From assembly GCA_947626465.1 (NCBI GenBank), contig CANQSI010000002.1:1-42179 (forward strand): a DNA stretch of 42,179 nt, given 5' to 3'. This DNA comes from an uncultured Atopobiaceae bacterium. GTDB taxonomy: Bacteria > Actinomycetota > Coriobacteriia > Coriobacteriales > Atopobiaceae. The notes beneath the pieces are model-generated. The model was not told the origin of the DNA. It made no database searches and saw nothing but the letters and a program-made list of their open reading frames with translations. How positions within the stretch are numbered: the stretch's first letter is position 1; the number at the start of each line of letters is the position of its first letter. Positions 6,545 through 16,252 of this stretch are shown piece by piece. Position numbers and translations under genes: made by a program.

Positions 6545-7480
6545 ATGGCGCAGCTCGCGCGGGAACACATGGCTCGCTACCGGGAAGTCCAGAGGATTCT
6601 CTGGGCGATCCTCGGGCTGAACGTGCTTGTGGCCGTGGCGAAGTTCGGCTGGGGTACGTTTTCGGGCTCCATGGCCATGGCGAACGATGGCATCGCGAGC
6701 TTCTTAGACGGCTTCTCGAACCTCGTGGGGTTGCTCGGCGTGCGCATCGCGTCCAAGCCGCCTGATGCGTCGCACCCCTATGGGCATGCGAAGTACGAGA
6801 CGTACGCCTCGGCGGTCATCGGCGTCGCGCTCCTCATCGCGGCAGGCGAGATCGCCACCAAGGCCATCTCGACGCTCGTGAGCGGCGAGAGCGCGATCCT
6901 CGTCGACTGGGTGAGCTACCTCATCATGGGGGGCACGCTCGTCATGAACCTCGGCGTTTCCCTCTGGGAGGGGCGCCAGGGCGCGCGTCTCAAGAGCGAG
7001 GTGCTCGAAGCCGATGCGAAGCACACGCGTTCGGACGCGTACGTGTCCATCTCGGTTATCTGCTCGCTCATCTTCGTGCAACTGGGCATCTCCGCGGCCG
7101 ACGCGGTGGTCTCGCTCCTCGTCGCGGTGGCGGTGCTCGGATCGGCGATCTCCATCTTCCGCCAGGCCTCTCGCACCTTGGGCGATGCCTCGCGGCTGAA
7201 CACCTCCGAGGTGGTGCGCCTCGTGGAGACGGTCGAGGGCGTGCGCTCGGTGCATGAGGTGAGAAGCCGCGGGAGCGAGGGCGAGGTGTATGTGGATCTC
7301 CACATCCTGCTCGACCCTAAGATGCCGCTCATCGAAGCCCACGAGAGGGCCACCGAGGTGGAGCAGGTGATCGAGCAGGTGTATCCCGAGGTGGCCGACG
7401 TGGTGGTGCACATGGAGCCGGACGTCGCGGAGGAGCGAAGGAACGCACTCGGGCCGGGTGTGCGTCGTCAAGAAGAGTAA
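6545..7480 (+). CDS. Cation diffusion facilitator family transporter
   Basis: GSMAMANDGIASFLDGFSNLVG, HPYGHAKYETYASAVIG, AKHTRSDAYVS and C-terminal ferredoxin-like domain; starts 2 nt after the sbcC stop. Confidence 0.92.
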   Translation: MAQLAREHMARYREVQRILWAILGLNVLVAVAKFGWGTFSGSMAMANDGIASFLDGFSNLVGLLGVRIASKPPDASHPYGHAKYETYASAVIGVALLIAAGEIATKAISTLVSGESAILVDWVSYLIMGGTLVMNLGVSLWEGRQGARLKSEVLEADAKHTRSDAYVSISVICSLIFVQLGISAADAVVSLLVAVAVLGSAISIFRQASRTLGDASRLNTSEVVRLVETVEGVRSVHEVRSRGSEGEVYVDLHILLDPKMPLIEAHERATEVEQVIEQVYPEVADVVVHMEPDVAEERRNALGPGVRRQEE

Positions 7481-8632: not shown

Positions 8633-9562
8633 GTGGCGAAGACGCAAGAGAGCCGAGCGGCTACGGCCTACGCCGTGGGCGCGGCAAGCCGTGCACGGAC
8701 GCTCACGCGGATCCTCTGGATAGGCTTCGCGCTGAACGTCCTCGTCGCCGTCTTCAAGTTCATCTACGGCACGCTCAGCGGCTCCATGTCGATGACCAAC
8801 GACGGCATCGCGAGCTTCCTCGATGCCGGCTCCACGCTGATCGGCCTCGCGGGCGTGTCCATCGCGAGCCGCCCGCCCTCAAAGAAGCACCCCTATGGCC
8901 ACGCGAAGTACGAGACCTACGCGTCGGTGGCCATCGGCGTCATCCTCATCATCGCCGCGGGCGACATCGCGCGGGAGGCCATCGCCTCGCTCCTCGAGGG
9001 CGGAAGCCACGTGATGGTGGATTGGGCGAGCTATGTGATCATGCTCGCCACCATGGCGCTGAACATCTGGGTTGCCTGGTGGGAGGGCCGCTGGGGTCGC
9101 GCGCTCCACTCCGAATCGCTCACCGCGGACGCAAAGCACACGTGGACTGACGTCTACGTGTCGGTCTCGGTCATCTGCTCGCTCATCTTCGTGCAGCTTG
9201 GCTACCCCGCGGCAGACGCGCTCGTGTCCCTCATCGTCGCCCTCGCGGTGCTCGCGTCGGCCATCTCCATCTTCCTCGAGGCGAACCGTACGCTCGCAGA
9301 CGCTTCCCGCCTTGATGCGGGCGAGGTGGCCGAGGTCGTGGAGGGTGTGGCCGGCGTCGCGGGCGTGGATGAGGTGCGAAGCCGTGGCACCGAGGGCGAG
9401 GTCTACGTCGACCTCCATGTCCTGCTCGACCCCAACATGACGCTACGCGAGGCGAACGAGATCGCCCAGTCGGCAGAAGCGCTCCTCGAGGAGCGGTTCC
9501 CCGAGGTCGCCGACGTGAGCGTGCTGATGAAACCCGCGCAGGAGGGCAGCGAGGGGGATTGA
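8633..9562 (+). CDS. Cation diffusion facilitator family transporter (paralogue of 6545-7480)
   Basis: GSMSMTNDGIASFLDAGSTLIG, HPYGHAKYETYASVAIG, AKHTWTDVYVS; GTG start with gggagg RBS. Confidence 0.92.
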   Translation: MAKTQESRAATAYAVGAASRARTLTRILWIGFALNVLVAVFKFIYGTLSGSMSMTNDGIASFLDAGSTLIGLAGVSIASRPPSKKHPYGHAKYETYASVAIGVILIIAAGDIAREAIASLLEGGSHVMVDWASYVIMLATMALNIWVAWWEGRWGRALHSESLTADAKHTWTDVYVSVSVICSLIFVQLGYPAADALVSLIVALAVLASAISIFLEANRTLADASRLDAGEVAEVVEGVAGVAGVDEVRSRGTEGEVYVDLHVLLDPNMTLREANEIAQSAEALLEERFPEVADVSVLMKPAQEGSEGD

Positions 9563-9576
9563 GGCCGCTAGGCCTC
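9561..9576. terminator. Short palindromic hairpin spanning the stop codons of convergent genes
   Basis: GAGGCC-GCTA-GGCCTC covers both cdf2 TGA (9560-9562) and the minus-strand TAG (9568-9570); no clear T-tract. Confidence 0.3.
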
Positions 9577-11007
9577 CGGAGCCTCCACCAGCATGGTCTC
9601 AGCCTCGAGGCGCTGGAGGCAGAGCGCGAGCATGCCCGTGAAGATTGCCTCGCGAAGATCGTCGAGCTTGATGAGGTCGGGCAGGAACTTCTCCGGGAGG
9701 TGCTCGGCCACTTCGTTTCTGAGGGCATCCATGTCGGGCACGAGATCGCAGGAGAGGTAGAACGCGTCTGGCGCCGCTATGCAGCTCGTGGCCACCACGT
9801 GGGCGGCAGCGGTCTTGAGGGCGGCCTCCGGGCTCCAACGCATGTCGTCTGCATCGATGTCGATGGGCCAGAGCGATTGGATGATGCCGACCTCGCCCGC
9901 AAAGCCCCGGTGGCCCTTGACGAGCTTGCCGTCGAGCACCGTCCCCGCAGCACCCGTCTCGTGGCCCGTTTGCTGCTGGTAGAGCGACACGTTCTCATAG
10001 CGCTTCTGCGATGCGTAACAACCCACCGCCGCGGCATTCGCGTCGTTTTCAACGAAGATGCGCGCGTCGGGGTACTGCTCGAGGATCTCGCTGAAGTCGT
10101 AGGTGGTGTCTGAATCGGGAGGAAACGTCGCGATGAGCCCGTCCACGACGCCCGGTACGACGATCCCCACCGCATCCACCGCCCCGGCGTCGATTCCGGA
10201 GGAGCGCAACGAGATGAGCAAATCGCTCACGTCGCGGAAGTCCACGCGACGCTTGGCCACGCGGCCGGAGGCCTTCACCTCGTTGTCCTCGTAGAGGCGA
10301 TAGCGAATGGTGGTGCGGTTCGTGTGGAGGTTCACGAAGATCACGAGCACGCTTTTGTCGCTCAGGACCTTTCTCACGATGCGCAGGTCGGGAGCATCGG
10401 GCGTAGTGGCATCGAGGGCGTCGAGGAGGAGGCGGATCGTCCCCGCTGCGTCGTAGGCCCCGTAGATCTTGGCGGGGATCTCGAAAACCGGCGTGGAAGG
10501 GAAGGATTCCGCCACCTTCTTGCGCAGGTAGCCCACCTGTGGGGCGAGCATCACCGCAGCGTAGGCGCCATTATCCTCGACCGCTTCCTCGAGGGGCTTC
10601 GCCACGAAGGTGTAGCCGAGCGAAAGCGAGGTGGCGGTGACGCTGAGCTTCTCCGCGAACATCATCGTGGTGAGGCCGGTGGTGCAGCAAAGCAGCACGG
10701 TCTCGGTCCTGCGCGCGCCTTGCTCGAGGAGCACCTCGAGCATCTCATCGAAGAGCTCGTGGGCGCGGGGGAGGTCGTTGAGCTCGAAGTGGAGGTGGAA
10801 GATCGGCTCGGAATCCTCGTGATGTGCACGTTGGATGATGAACTCCACGATGCGCGGCTGCAGGTCATCCACCTTGTAGAACGTCACCTTCGCGTCGGCG
10901 GCATCGGTGGAAAGGTCGATCTCGTCGTCGCCCTTCGCCTCGATGGTGCAGCCGTCGATCACCCGAGAGAGGATCCACGAGCGAAACGCCTCATAGGACT
11001 TCGGCAT
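9568..11007 (-). CDS. PTS EIIB (lactose/cellobiose-type)-ROK domain fusion protein with uncharacterised N-terminal domain
   Basis: Residues ~101-199: TETVLLCCTTGLTTMMFAEKL...YAAVMLAPQVGYLRKKV...TPVFEIPAKIYGAYDAAG matches ChbB-type EIIB layout; residues ~218-479: VGIVVPGVVDGLIATFP, VENDANAAAVG, GKLVKGHRGFAGEVG are ROK-like. Confidence 0.85.
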   Translation of the reverse strand: MPKSYEAFRSWILSRVIDGCTIEAKGDDEIDLSTDAADAKVTFYKVDDLQPRIVEFIIQRAHHEDSEPIFHLHFELNDLPRAHELFDEMLEVLLEQGARRTETVLLCCTTGLTTMMFAEKLSVTATSLSLGYTFVAKPLEEAVEDNGAYAAVMLAPQVGYLRKKVAESFPSTPVFEIPAKIYGAYDAAGTIRLLLDALDATTPDAPDLRIVRKVLSDKSVLVIFVNLHTNRTTIRYRLYEDNEVKASGRVAKRRVDFRDVSDLLISLRSSGIDAGAVDAVGIVVPGVVDGLIATFPPDSDTTYDFSEILEQYPDARIFVENDANAAAVGCYASQKRYENVSLYQQQTGHETGAAGTVLDGKLVKGHRGFAGEVGIIQSLWPIDIDADDMRWSPEAALKTAAAHVVATSCIAAPDAFYLSCDLVPDMDALRNEVAEHLPEKFLPDLIKLDDLREAIFTGMLALCLQRLEAETMLVEAPEA

Positions 11008-11088: not shown

Positions 11089-12515
11089 TTACGCAAGTTC
11101 AACAACACATCCACTGTGGGGCGCGAGACGCACCCAGAGCTTCCCCTCGCGAAGCGCCGCCTCGCCCGACCCCGCAGCTACGCGTGCGCTCTCGGCGCCT
11201 ACGGGAAGGTCGAGCCAGAGCTCTCGCTCCCCGTCGGCATTCGAGAGCGCCGTGATGCACGCCACATCGCGTCCGGATGCGTTCTCCGGATGCCCCGCGT
11301 CGAGCACGCGCGCGAAGGCGTAGGTTTCCGTTTGGAGGGAGATCTCCTGGTAGCGGCCCCAGGAGAATTCGGGATGCGCGTCCCTGAGCGTGGAGAGCGC
11401 GCGGATGAGGGGGCAGATTTCCGGGTGTGGCACGTCGAGCGTGGCGAGGTCGAGCGCCGGTCGAAGCGGCTCGTCTGCGAGGGCGCCTCGCCCCTTTCGA
11501 CCCTGGATGCCGAACTCGGAGCCGTAGTAGACGCTCGGAATGCCGAGGATCGTGAAGAGGAACACCGTCACGGGCACGAGGTCGCGGGGGTCGGCGAGCT
11601 TCGAGGCGATCCGCTCCACGTCCTGGTTGTCGCAGAAGGTGTAGAGATGCGCGCCCTGGCATGCGCCCCACGGCCCGAAGAGCCGAAGGACGTTATGCCC
11701 CATCTCGAAGTAGTTGTGCGAGTTGTGGGCGCTCCAGATGGCCTTCGAGAGCTCGTAGTTCGTCACGGAATCGAGGTGCGCATCGTTCAACCATCGCTCG
11801 TAGTTGCCCATGATCACCTCGCCCATGAGCCAAAAGTCGCTGCGGAGGCCCTTCATGCGGCCCACGAGCTGGCGCAGGAACTCGAAGTCCATCACGTCTG
11901 CGGAATCGAGGCGGATGCCGTCGATGCCGAAGTCCTCGAGCCAAAACTGCGCGACATCGAGGAGGTAGTCCCTCACCTGCTGGTTCTGGAGGTTCAGCGC
12001 GGGGAGGATGTCCACGCCTCGCCATCCCTCATAGCCAAAGCCGTCGCCCATCTGTCCCGGCCAGTCGAAGTTCACCCCGCGATACCAATCCTTCGCCCAG
12101 GAATCCCAGCGCTTCTCGCGAAGGTCCCGGAAGGCGAAGAAGTCGCGCCCGGTGTGGTTGAAGACGCCGTCCACCACGACTTTGATGCCAAGTTCATGGC
12201 AGTGCGCCACCCACGCGCGGAAGTCGTCGTTCGTGCCGAGGCGGCTGTCGACTACGCGGTAGTCGATCGTGTCGTAGCCGTGCGTCGCGCTCTGGAAGAG
12301 CGGCCCGATGTAGATGGCGGTGAATCCGAGCCCGGCGGCATGCTCGGCCCATTCGCGAAGGCGCTCGAAGGGCGCGGGGGGAAGCGGGATGCCATGCTCC
12401 TCAGCGCCGCGCGCGAGCTGGGCTTCGGCGCTCTCGAAGGAGTTCTCGCGCGGGCATCCGCAGAGCCCGAGCGGATAGATGTGGTAGAACCGCGCGCTCT
12501 CAAACCAAGGGGCCA
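11089..12515 (-). CDS. GH13 alpha-amylase-family glycosidase (cyclomaltodextrinase/neopullulanase-like)
   Basis: MAPWFESARFYHIYPLG..., VVVDGVFNHTGRDF, GIDGIRLDSADVM, FWLMGEVIMGNY, TFCDNQDVERIAS: GH13 conserved regions with Asp, Glu and Asp catalytic positions. Confidence 0.92.
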
Positions 12516-12677
12516 TACACGTCCTCTTTCCCTTGCACGCAACCGATGCATCAATCTGATAATTGTAGGAACTTCCTCGCCGTTGGCGCCGCACTGGCGC
12601 TAGATTGGTGGTTGCGAGCTCGATGGGAGCCCAGAAGCGCACACGTTCGTGGGAACATGGGACAGGGGAGGTACACC

Positions 12678-14852
12678 ATGGCAACGCTTCAGTGGCAATC
12701 GCTCGATCAAGGTGGCTCGTGGACCCAACAGGCACGGGCGAAGGATTTCCTTTCCGGATATATCGCCCTCGAGGAGGATTCTCCGGGAAACGCCTCCGGC
12801 GGCTGGGTGCGGCCGCTGCGCTTCACGCGAGAGCAGATTCGCGCCCTTTCGAGCGTAGCCGCATGGCATCCGGCGCTCTATCGCGCGCAAGCCACCTCCA
12901 CGGCGGGCATGTGCATCGAGGTGAAGACGCGCGCCACGCGCATAGGGCTCGAGGTCGTGCGCGAGGCGGGCTTGGCTCGCGTGGGCGACGAGATGGCCGA
13001 CGTGTCAGAGGACGGGTTCTCCGTCGATGTGAACGAGCGCCACGCGGAGGGAGTGCTCGATGTCCACGGCGAGGGCCTCGTGGTAGTCGACCTCTCCGAC
13101 GAGAAGAAGTCCGCAGAGCGCCTCGTGCGCCTCTGGCTCCCCGCATTTTCCCCATGCCGCGTGCGCAGCCTCTTTGCGAGCGCAGATGTGGCACCGCTTC
13201 CCAAGAGGCGTACCCTCCTCGTTCTCGGAGGGTCGGCCGCCCAAGGGCAAAACGCGCATGATCCCGGCCTCGGTTGGGCGCAGGTCCTTCGTCGCGAGGC
13301 CAATCTCGAGGTGATCAACCAGGGCCTTCTCTCCCAGGTGTTCCAGCCGAGCGCGCTCTCGCCGCTCGCGGGCAACGTCGATCCCGATCTCATCTGGATT
13401 GCCTATGGCGGGGCCTATCGCCATGAGGAGTGCTACGCCGGGGCACTCGAGCGCGATATCCGCGCGGCGCTCGGCGTGGTGCGGCGTCTATGGCGAGATC
13501 GCCCCACGTGGATCCAAACTCCCACGCCGCATGACGAGAACGCGCGTCCCTCTGCGGCGAGGAGCTGCTGGCGTGAGCTCCCCGATATCCTCGCGCGCAT
13601 CTCCGAGCGCTGGCCGCAGTTCGAGCTCGTGGATGGCGACGATCTCCTCGACGCCGATGCCTCGCTCATGGACGATGCCGACCACCCGAACGCCGAGGGC
13701 CACGCTGAGATGGCGAAGCGCATCGGGCGCGTGCTCGCGGGCAAGCCCCCCATAACGGAAAGGGAGCGCGAGGACCGCTCGCTCCCGAGCTTCCTTCGCG
13801 AGCGCGGGCGCGCAGATGCGATGCGCCGCCCGATCGCCTCTCCCGAACTCAAGGATCGCGAGGCTGCGGAGCTCGCCGAGGACGAGGTGCTCGCCGAGCC
13901 GGCCGAGGTGGCGCCCATCGCCGAGCCGGAGCTCGAGGCATCCGAAGGCGAGCTCTCCCTCCTCTCGAGGATGTCCGAGGGAGACGTGGACGAGGCCGCT
14001 GCAAAGGAGGTCGACGTCCCCGAGGGTAAGTCCGCGAGCCTCGAGGCCACGGCCGTGCTCGATGCGCGGGCGCTTCGCAGGGCGCTCAAGGAGGGCGCGC
14101 CCCCGCGTGGCACCTCGCGCGTGCGCGAGGAAGACATCGATGCCGTGCTCTCCCTCTTCGCCGAGGGGCCGCTCGATTCCGTGCCGATGGAGCAGATCGT
14201 ACTCCGCGGCCTCGGAAAGATGAGCTACGCGAGCGAGGGCTTCGCCACGGTTGATCTCCCCGATGGCACGCGCTACTTCTGGGGCACGGACGTGATCGAG
14301 GCGAAGCGGGCGATGGCGCGCCAAACGAGGCCAAGCCTCGCCGTGGTGCTCTCGCCAGAGCTCGAGGGCGTGCTTCGGCGCACCTTCTCGGCCAACGAGG
14401 CGAGCATGCCCTACACGCTCGTGGTCTACGAGGGAACGGAGCCCCTTCCCGTGGAGGCGGAACTCGACGTACGCACCCTCGCGCCCAGCTGGGCGAGCGT
14501 GATCCGCAAGGCCTACAGCTTCCCCGAGGGAGCGAGCGCGGCGGAGATCGCGCACCTCCTCGCAAAGGGGCAGATCCTCGGGGGCTTCGATCTCGACAAC
14601 CAGCTCGTGGGCTTCATCGGCGAGCATCCGGATGGAGCGCTCGGCATGCTCGAGGTCTTCCCTCGGGCGCGCCGGCGCGGCTTTGGTTCGGCGCTTCTCG
14701 CGTCGAAGGCGAACGAGCACCTCGGCAAAGGCTGGACGCCGTTCAGCCAGGTGATGGCCGCCAATGACGCATCGCTCGCCCTGCACAAGGCCGTCGGCTT
14801 CGAGGTCGTGAAGACGCGCCAGTTCTACATCCCCATGGAGGGCGCGCGATGA
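12678..14852 (+). CDS. SGNH/GDSL-like hydrolase domain fused through an acidic linker to a C-terminal GNAT acetyltransferase
   Basis: LLVLGGSAAQGQNAHDPGLGWAQVL (block I), VDPDLIWIAYGGAYR (block III-like), DDADHPNAEGHAEMAKRIG (Asp-His block V); C-terminal GNAT GMLEVFPRARRRGFGSALLASKANEHL...ANDASLALHKAVGFEVVKTRQFYIPM; RBS ggggagg upstream of ATG 12678. Confidence 0.82.
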   Translation: MATLQWQSLDQGGSWTQQARAKDFLSGYIALEEDSPGNASGGWVRPLRFTREQIRALSSVAAWHPALYRAQATSTAGMCIEVKTRATRIGLEVVREAGLARVGDEMADVSEDGFSVDVNERHAEGVLDVHGEGLVVVDLSDEKKSAERLVRLWLPAFSPCRVRSLFASADVAPLPKRRTLLVLGGSAAQGQNAHDPGLGWAQVLRREANLEVINQGLLSQVFQPSALSPLAGNVDPDLIWIAYGGAYRHEECYAGALERDIRAALGVVRRLWRDRPTWIQTPTPHDENARPSAARSCWRELPDILARISERWPQFELVDGDDLLDADASLMDDADHPNAEGHAEMAKRIGRVLAGKPPITEREREDRSLPSFLRERGRADAMRRPIASPELKDREAAELAEDEVLAEPAEVAPIAEPELEASEGELSLLSRMSEGDVDEAAAKEVDVPEGKSASLEATAVLDARALRRALKEGAPPRGTSRVREEDIDAVLSLFAEGPLDSVPMEQIVLRGLGKMSYASEGFATVDLPDGTRYFWGTDVIEAKRAMARQTRPSLAVVLSPELEGVLRRTFSANEASMPYTLVVYEGTEPLPVEAELDVRTLAPSWASVIRKAYSFPEGASAAEIAHLLAKGQILGGFDLDNQLVGFIGEHPDGALGMLEVFPRARRRGFGSALLASKANEHLGKGWTPFSQVMAANDASLALHKAVGFEVVKTRQFYIPMEGAR

Positions 14853-16252
14853 GCGCGGCGGACTTCGGCGCGACGCGCGCCGGCCTCGTGCTCGAGGAGG
14901 AATTCAACGCCACGTGCGCCGCGCTCGCGGGCGACGTCGAGAGCCGAGCTTCGGGTGACGACTATCTCGCCACCACGCACGCGCTCTACCACGGCCAGCC
15001 GCTTTCCTGGGCCTTCACGCCCAAGATCTTCACGCCGAAGGGCGAAGGCTACCTGCGGGAGATCGCGGAGACCATGGGGCGCATCATGGAGAAGGTCACG
15101 CGCGCCTTTCGCGAGCGCGAGGAGGTGCGCGCGGCGTTCGGACTGCCCCGGGAGGTGGAGGAGCTCTGCCTGCTCCCTGTGGGCTATGGCTCGGAGATCC
15201 CGCTCGCGCGCGTGGACATCTTCCTGAACGAGCGCACGGGACAGTTCTGGTTTTGCGAGCTCAACACCGACGGCTCGGCCGGCATGACGAGTGCGGTGGA
15301 GGTGAGCGAGGCAATCGCCCGTTCGGCCACGTGGGAGGCGTTCTCGAAGCGCCACGGCGAGGCGAGGACCTTCGACGTGGTGCGTGCGTGCGCCGAGGCC
15401 ATCCTCGAGACCTATTCGGAGTGGGAGGGGCGCGGCACGCACGGACACCCCGATGAGAAGCCCGTGATCGGCGTGGTGGATTACGGCGAATCCATCTCCG
15501 CAGACGAGGTGGCCCACTTCGTAGAGATCTTCGAGGAGAAGGGCGTCACGTGCCGCTTCTCCGAGATTCGCGAGCTCACGGTCGTGGAGGGGGCGGGCGG
15601 CGCGCAAATCGCCGACGCCTGCGGCACGCTCGACCTCGTGTGGCGGCGCGCCGTGCTCTCGGAAATGCTCGAGAAGCCCTGTTCGGGCTCCGAGGCACTC
15701 ATCCGTGCGCAGAGGGAGCAGCTCGCGTGCGTGGTGGGAGGGTTTCGTACCTGGCCCTGCGCCACGAAGACGGTGTTCTGCGCCCTGCGCAGCCCCGTCC
15801 TTCGCGATCTCCTCACCGGCGCCGAGCGTCGCTTCGTGGAGGAGCACGTGCCCTACACGGAGGTCCTCGGCCCCGAGACGGACCTCTCTCGCTTCGTGGA
15901 GAAGGACGAATGGATCGTAAAGCCGCAGGATGGCTATAACGCGATGGGCGTCGTGGCGGGGCTCGACGAGACGCCGAAGGCCTGGCAGGAGGTGCTCCTG
16001 CGCGCAGCCGAAACCCGCAGCGTGATCCAGCGCTACGCGCCGCAGTTCAAAAGCGCCGTCTACCTCGGAGGCAAGCTTCCGCAGGGCGAGGATCCGCTCA
16101 TCTGCCGCGAGGAATCCATGATGGAGGGGCTCTTCCTCTTCCGCGGCAAGTTCCAAGGCGTGTTCACCCGCTGCGGGCGCGAGGCGACGATCGGCGAATG
16201 GACCGATCGGCTGAACATGGGATGCTTCGTGGTGGGGGAGGAGCACGCGTGA
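14849..16252 (+). CDS. Glutathionylspermidine synthase-like ATP-grasp ligase
   Basis: RVDIFLNERTGQFWFCELNTDGSAGM, WIVKPQDGYNAMGVVAG, SVIQRYAPQFKSAVYLGG; overlaps upstream gene by ATGA. Lacks an amidase domain. Confidence 0.8.
   Translation: MSAADFGATRAGLVLEEEFNATCAALAGDVESRASGDDYLATTHALYHGQPLSWAFTPKIFTPKGEGYLREIAETMGRIMEKVTRAFREREEVRAAFGLPREVEELCLLPVGYGSEIPLARVDIFLNERTGQFWFCELNTDGSAGMTSAVEVSEAIARSATWEAFSKRHGEARTFDVVRACAEAILETYSEWEGRGTHGHPDEKPVIGVVDYGESISADEVAHFVEIFEEKGVTCRFSEIRELTVVEGAGGAQIADACGTLDLVWRRAVLSEMLEKPCSGSEALIRAQREQLACVVGGFRTWPCATKTVFCALRSPVLRDLLTGAERRFVEEHVPYTEVLGPETDLSRFVEKDEWIVKPQDGYNAMGVVAGLDETPKAWQEVLLRAAETRSVIQRYAPQFKSAVYLGGKLPQGEDPLICREESMMEGLFLFRGKFQGVFTRCGREATIGEWTDRLNMGCFVVGEEHA

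Follow-up and report, generated by a model that had tools for sequence, protein, structure and literature searches.

A conserved EIIB–ROK protein family of Atopobiaceae and its possible role in PTS-coupled sugar sensing

The window, that is, the whole stretch of 42,179 nucleotides analysed here, comes from an uncultured Atopobiaceae bacterium and carries on its reverse strand an open reading frame whose translation equals the 479 aa quoted in a preliminary description of the sequence. The frame has a coding-like composition (GC3 0.86, GC2 0.40) and a GGAGG ribosome-binding site just 5′ of its ATG. It is preceded, at a distance of 81 bp, by a GH13 gene, for whose product neopullulanase and cyclomaltodextrinase are the closest structures. 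The coordinates are summarized in Table 1. Elsewhere in the window, a 768-aa frame at 12546-14852 (+) combines matches to a GDSL-type hydrolase (residues 226-387) and to a GNAT acetyltransferase (676-758), and a 467-aa frame at 14849-16252 (+), which has coding-like composition and no Pfam or NCBIfam match, sits between this gene and a dGTPase-like gene. A stretch of about 3 kb holds two CDF cation-efflux transporters (6566-7480 and 8633-9562, both on the + strand), with an alcohol dehydrogenase-like gene between them.

Table 1. Features of the EIIB–ROK locus in the window
Feature	Position	Strand	Basis
GH13 enzyme, neopullulanase/cyclomaltodextrinase-like, 475 aa from likely ATG	11089..12516	(-)	upstream, same strand
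EIIB–pseudo-ROK gene (ROK part predicted pseudokinase), 479 aa	9568..11007	(-)	translation, composition, RBS, Pfam, dN/dS
N-terminal domain, residues 1-99, alpha-beta5-alpha	10711..11007	(-)	model, fold/sequence searches, conservation
EIIB domain, lactose/cellobiose type, residues 101-199	10411..10707	(-)	Pfam, ChbB matches, model secondary structure
Cys108 codon, phospho-acceptor position	10684..10686	(-)	107/107 conserved; aligns with ChbB phospho-Cys
Degenerate ROK domain, residues 218-470	9598..10356	(-)	Pfam, alignment, Foldseek

The protein is composed of a novel domain of about 99 aa, an EIIB domain of the lactose/cellobiose (Lac/Cel) type and a ROK domain, and this architecture is conserved. 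The preliminary description had proposed the same three parts, and the Pfam, PDB profile and fold matches agree on them, with an EIIB match at residues 101-199 and a ROK fold in the structural model. On the window protein, PF02302 covers residues 104-184 with 22.8 bits, slightly below the cut-off of 23.6, while the window gene reaches 25.8 bits, above the cut-off, in the whole-genome search, and other family members also lie above it with up to 44.6 bits. ChbB (PDB 1h9c) is matched by the window protein alone with E=2.9e-6 and by the family profile with E=3.2e-15 over residues 97-199, which bears out the Lac/Cel assignment. Cys108, previously put at the phospho-Cys position, indeed aligns with the phospho-Cys of ChbB, and this P-loop Cys is present in all the 107 full-length homologues that were collected, to which the conservation counts given here refer. 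The adjacent Cys107 varies among them (Cys in 88, Ser in 14, Thr in 4 and Val in 1), and this suggests that the functional residue is Cys108. In addition, P156 and Q157 are invariant (107/107) and D186 is found in 105/107. The EIIB domain is the best conserved part of the protein, with a mean column entropy of 1.48 bits, compared with 1.97 for the N-terminal domain and 1.9 for the ROK domain. Chance similarity was ruled out by the family-level statistics together with the residue invariance.

The ROK domain, likewise anticipated downstream of the EIIB, is matched by PF00480 with E=1.3e-11. PF00480 and PF02302 thus co-occur on the window protein and are the only Pfam families found there, PRD and HTH/antiterminator domains being absent. 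For the AlphaFold model (mean pLDDT 81, pTM 0.76), the top Foldseek matches are ROK kinases, for example ManNAc kinase (6jdc, E=1.8e-12, TM 0.68 by target), with further ROK proteins at E~1e-12, and the Mlc–EIICB-Glc complex (3bp8) is also among the fold matches, as are the ROK repressors 1z05 and Mlc among the PDB matches in the family-profile search. The DxGxT ATP-phosphate motif occurs in none of the 47 sequences compared, the window protein having VNLHTNRT in its place, and the zinc motif CxCGxxGC, expected after GE.GH, is found neither in the window protein nor in the homologues aligned with it. The window protein keeps the catalytic Asp (D322), which is Asp in 26/107 members overall and Asn in 78/107, and the pocket residues N321 and E372 are present in 101/107 and 92/107, respectively. 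Since the ATP and zinc motifs are lost while pocket Asn321 and Glu372 are mostly retained, the ROK part appears to be an ATP-independent pseudokinase, which may still bind sugar.

Modelled separately, residues 1-99 fold with a pLDDT of 89. No Pfam family, no PDB fold match with E<0.001 and no meaningful sequence match in the PDB was found for them, in line with the earlier suggestion of an N-terminal domain of some 100 residues without a known family; a faint resemblance to the Pur-alpha fold has E 0.2-0.5. The structure prediction and Foldseek search proposed in the preliminary description recovered the ROK fold and left the N-terminal fold unmatched in the PDB. Of the two outcomes named there as refuting, lack of an EIIB fold and lack of a ROK fold, neither was observed. 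E55, L85, F86 and M89 are invariant or nearly so in the family. A wHTH, as also noted previously, is absent from the window protein, and so is any other HTH, whether judged by Pfam, the full-length model or the separate one; a wHTH concealed in the N-terminal domain was considered and rejected, because the separate model and its fold search gave nothing significant. The domain as a widespread stand-alone module was rejected too: its 28 matches in 12 genomes are all family-like except one 359-aa frame, and no match occurs in the four genomes without the EIIB–ROK family.

The preliminary description, made without view of any relatives, has to be corrected in two respects: the protein is not an oddity standing alone but one member of a family, and its ROK domain is devoid of the ATP and zinc motifs. 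The full-length architecture is found in genera g1, g3, g17, g30 and g35 of the same Atopobiaceae family, with several copies to a genome (usually 4-9 matches, including some ordinary EIIB or ROK genes), and the remaining sampled genera gave single-domain matches only. EIIB–ROK is a paralogous multi-copy family that spans five or more genera within a single Atopobiaceae family. One Lachnospiraceae-labelled contig (L059) also carries the architecture; wide occurrence in Lachnospiraceae was rejected, as its genome is the only such case among 299 Lachnospiraceae-side genomes. An origin from plasmids or phages was likewise rejected, since the architecture has no match in any plasmid record and, for a fused relative, the best matches in phages span the metallophosphoesterase part alone. 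In five genomes of the window's genus, orthologues share 95, 93, 88, 73 and 59% identity with the window protein, and dN/dS against orthologues is 0.08-0.17; the gene is under purifying selection. Five of the public records matching the window protein are ‘uncultured Atopobiaceae’ MAGs labelled Lapin. No description of the EIIB and ROK combination was found among the open-access papers searched. This is a previously unnamed family, probably of an already known, PTS-coupled regulatory type, with a predicted function.

The genomic context was then compared among family members. The pairing with GH13 is kept in 6/6 close orthologues of the window gene. Elsewhere, the neighbours include GH1 proteins whose best-scoring models are 6-phospho-beta-glucosidases, Cof-type HAD phosphatases, HPr, and the 6-phospho-N-acetylmuramidase MupG together with EIIA(Lac/Cel); at three loci, an MFS symporter, a HUMPS enzyme and EIIB–ROK are consecutive. 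The HAD, GH1, GH13 and MupG clusters account for 38 of 205 adjacent genes, compared with 1 of 300 genes at least four positions away (Fisher p=4e-15, which is optimistic because the members are related and the counts non-independent). Of the 69 members that have a gene close upstream on the same strand, 41 have some other neighbour, and therefore the partner is not uniform. Two divergent members in g17 (L206 and L207) have nearby ORFs that by sequence resemble a HAD phosphatase, a regulator of the RpiR type and a divergent GH1 protein, and a ROK-like match lies further downstream (35 bits in L206).

We also found an N-terminal metallophosphoesterase fused in frame in about 20 members (PF00149 4.8e-8 for the isolated domain). 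In six sampled genomes, EIIA(Lac/Cel) and MupG lie 5′ of this fused form, and in L074 and L126 a similar metallophosphoesterase, recognised by sequence, is encoded by a separate adjacent gene 4-6 bp downstream; this gene comes after MupG. Being fused in some members and adjacent in others, the metallophosphoesterase and EIIB–ROK are suggested to be functionally linked.

With respect to PTS components, the EIIB had been called an orphan. This is only partly right. The window gene has no adjacent EIIC, but relatives share operons with EIIA(Lac/Cel) or HPr; in L077, for example, GH1 and HPr precede the family gene, and the ORF upstream of GH1 is EIIA-like by sequence. In the window's genus, HPr is found in four genomes and EIIC in 6/6, and both members checked (G012 and G014) have EIIA(Lac/Cel) adjoining EIIB genes. 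The MupG clusters of genus g35 contain EIIC and EIIA(Lac/Cel), and the one in G122 has an intact separate EIIB (L192). The fused protein's EIIB is therefore additional there, which suits regulation better than transport, and the idea that it is the only EIIB of the MupG PTS was rejected. In L184 (at 11122 and 14573), L193 and L194, the separate EIIB of the MupG cluster appears to contain an internal deletion or a frameshift; in view of the intact copy in G122, these truncations are possibly an assembly artefact. It should also be noted that frames with two PF02302 matches each occur in PTS clusters of relatives from the window's genus (G012:C47:1266-3192, G014:C19:1333-3256, G015:C1:90663-92782, G013:C28:9-1872 and G011:C41:8553-9200), and that an HPr match in the window's own genome (G000:C50:1919-2152) lies inside a 462-aa open frame and may represent one domain of a multi-domain PTS protein.

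In bacteria, sugar supply is coupled to regulation chiefly through the PTS, and to our knowledge its readouts are separate EIIA/EIIB proteins or PRD regulators. Here, we tentatively propose, at somewhat short of even confidence, that the window protein is a soluble, PTS-phosphorylatable sensor of sugar or phospho-sugar, which controls the adjacent sugar hydrolases or phosphatases. When PTS sugars are scarce, a phosphorylated EIIA of the Lac/Cel type would load Cys108 and thereby report the PTS (PEP) status, while the ROK domain, devoid of an ATP site, would act as the receptor for a sugar or phospho-sugar. The combined state would then be passed to the partner from the same operon, acting on the partner itself rather than on its expression. 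In the window this partner would be the GH13 enzyme, and in relatives a 6-phospho-glycosidase, a Cof-type sugar phosphatase or the fused metallophosphoesterase. The novel N-terminal domain could serve as the contact or output module; otherwise, the state could be conveyed by direct contact. Such a sensor role is plausible, and is strengthened by the invariance of Cys108, the ROK domain without an ATP site and the neighbourhood of PTS and sugar-hydrolase genes. There are precedents for both inputs, as EIIB-like domains act as regulatory inputs in PTS regulators such as MtlR (PMC6148471), and Mlc, a ROK protein, is bound by dephosphorylated EIICB-Glc (PMC3901232).

Alternatively, the output could lie at the level of transcription or RNA, with the N-terminal domain binding either nucleic acid or a transcription factor as its partner, while EIIB phosphorylation and sugar binding govern the neighbouring operon in the way known from PRD–EIIB regulators and from ROK repressors. 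The location of family genes in sugar operons is consistent with this, as are the use of EIIB-like domains in this manner by MtlR-type regulators (PMC6148471), the frequency of repressors among ROK proteins (1z05 and Mlc in the profile search being examples) and, in g17, an ORF directly upstream that by sequence has an RpiR-type HTH. The N-terminal domain, with its unassigned fold, could equally bind nucleic acid. However, neither Pfam nor the model reveals an HTH, the resemblance to Pur-alpha is not significant, and the metallophosphoesterase fusion better suits an enzyme partner. We consider regulation at this level unlikely, though worth keeping in mind.

The PTS-dependent dihydroxyacetone kinase offers a parallel for another explanation, a PTS-powered soluble sugar kinase, in which the phosphate of EIIB would be transferred to a sugar in the ROK pocket. 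EIIB and ROK would then form a cytosolic PTS branch, replacing ATP and the sugar kinase as well as the membrane component EIIC. The loss of the ATP site with retention of pocket positions would be expected, the neighbouring GH1, MupG and HUMPS enzymes process phosphorylated sugars, and the three loci with an MFS symporter are also compatible. Nevertheless, the predominance of Asn at the catalytic Asp position, the EIIC within the MupG clusters and the intact EIIB in G122 make such a kinase improbable. It is slightly more improbable still that the protein is a plain transporter EIIB working in trans for EIICs, the ROK and remaining domains being accessory modules. The MupG clusters do provide EIIC and EIIA(Lac/Cel), and their separate EIIB appears truncated in several MAGs, but the truncations have varying junctions and one scaffold gap and may be artefacts, G122 retains its own EIIB, and most members, that of the window included, have no adjacent EIIC. 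Finally, a non-functional fusion relic or a misassembled frame, as the degenerate ROK motifs might suggest, is scarcely credible for an architecture that is identical in 107 collected homologues, with Cys108 invariant and low dN/dS.

If the two-input sensor proposed above is correct, the family would represent a modular means by which single sugar enzymes are jointly controlled by PTS status and a sugar ligand, expanded in gut Atopobiaceae to several copies per genome, with hydrolases and phosphatases as paired or fused partners. It would also allow a study, in a defined system, of what is sensed by a ROK domain that lacks an ATP site, and would recast the relation of Mlc and EIIB as a single testable polypeptide. 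A ROK protein also cooperates with an EIIB domain in the complex of Mlc with EIICB-Glc (PDB 3bp8), but there the two belong to separate proteins and the EIIB is of the Glc type, whereas the window protein joins a Lac/Cel-type EIIB to ROK in one covalent chain. With EIIB proteins of the ChbB/CelA type (PDB 1h9c and 1iib), it shares the fold, the P-loop, the phospho-Cys position and the PQ motif, but is fused, soluble and multidomain, and most family members lack an adjacent EIIC. PRD regulators of the MtlR type also have a PTS-phosphorylatable EIIB-like domain in a non-transporter, as predicted here, while the present EIIB is of the Lac/Cel type and is accompanied by ROK instead of PRD, EIIA and HTH. 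Compared with the ROK family (NagC/Mlc, ManNAc kinase 6jdc and glucokinase), the actin-like fold and the N-[D/N]-A-N and G-E pocket motifs are shared, while the wHTH, the DxGxT motif and the zinc motif are absent and the catalytic Asp is mostly Asn.
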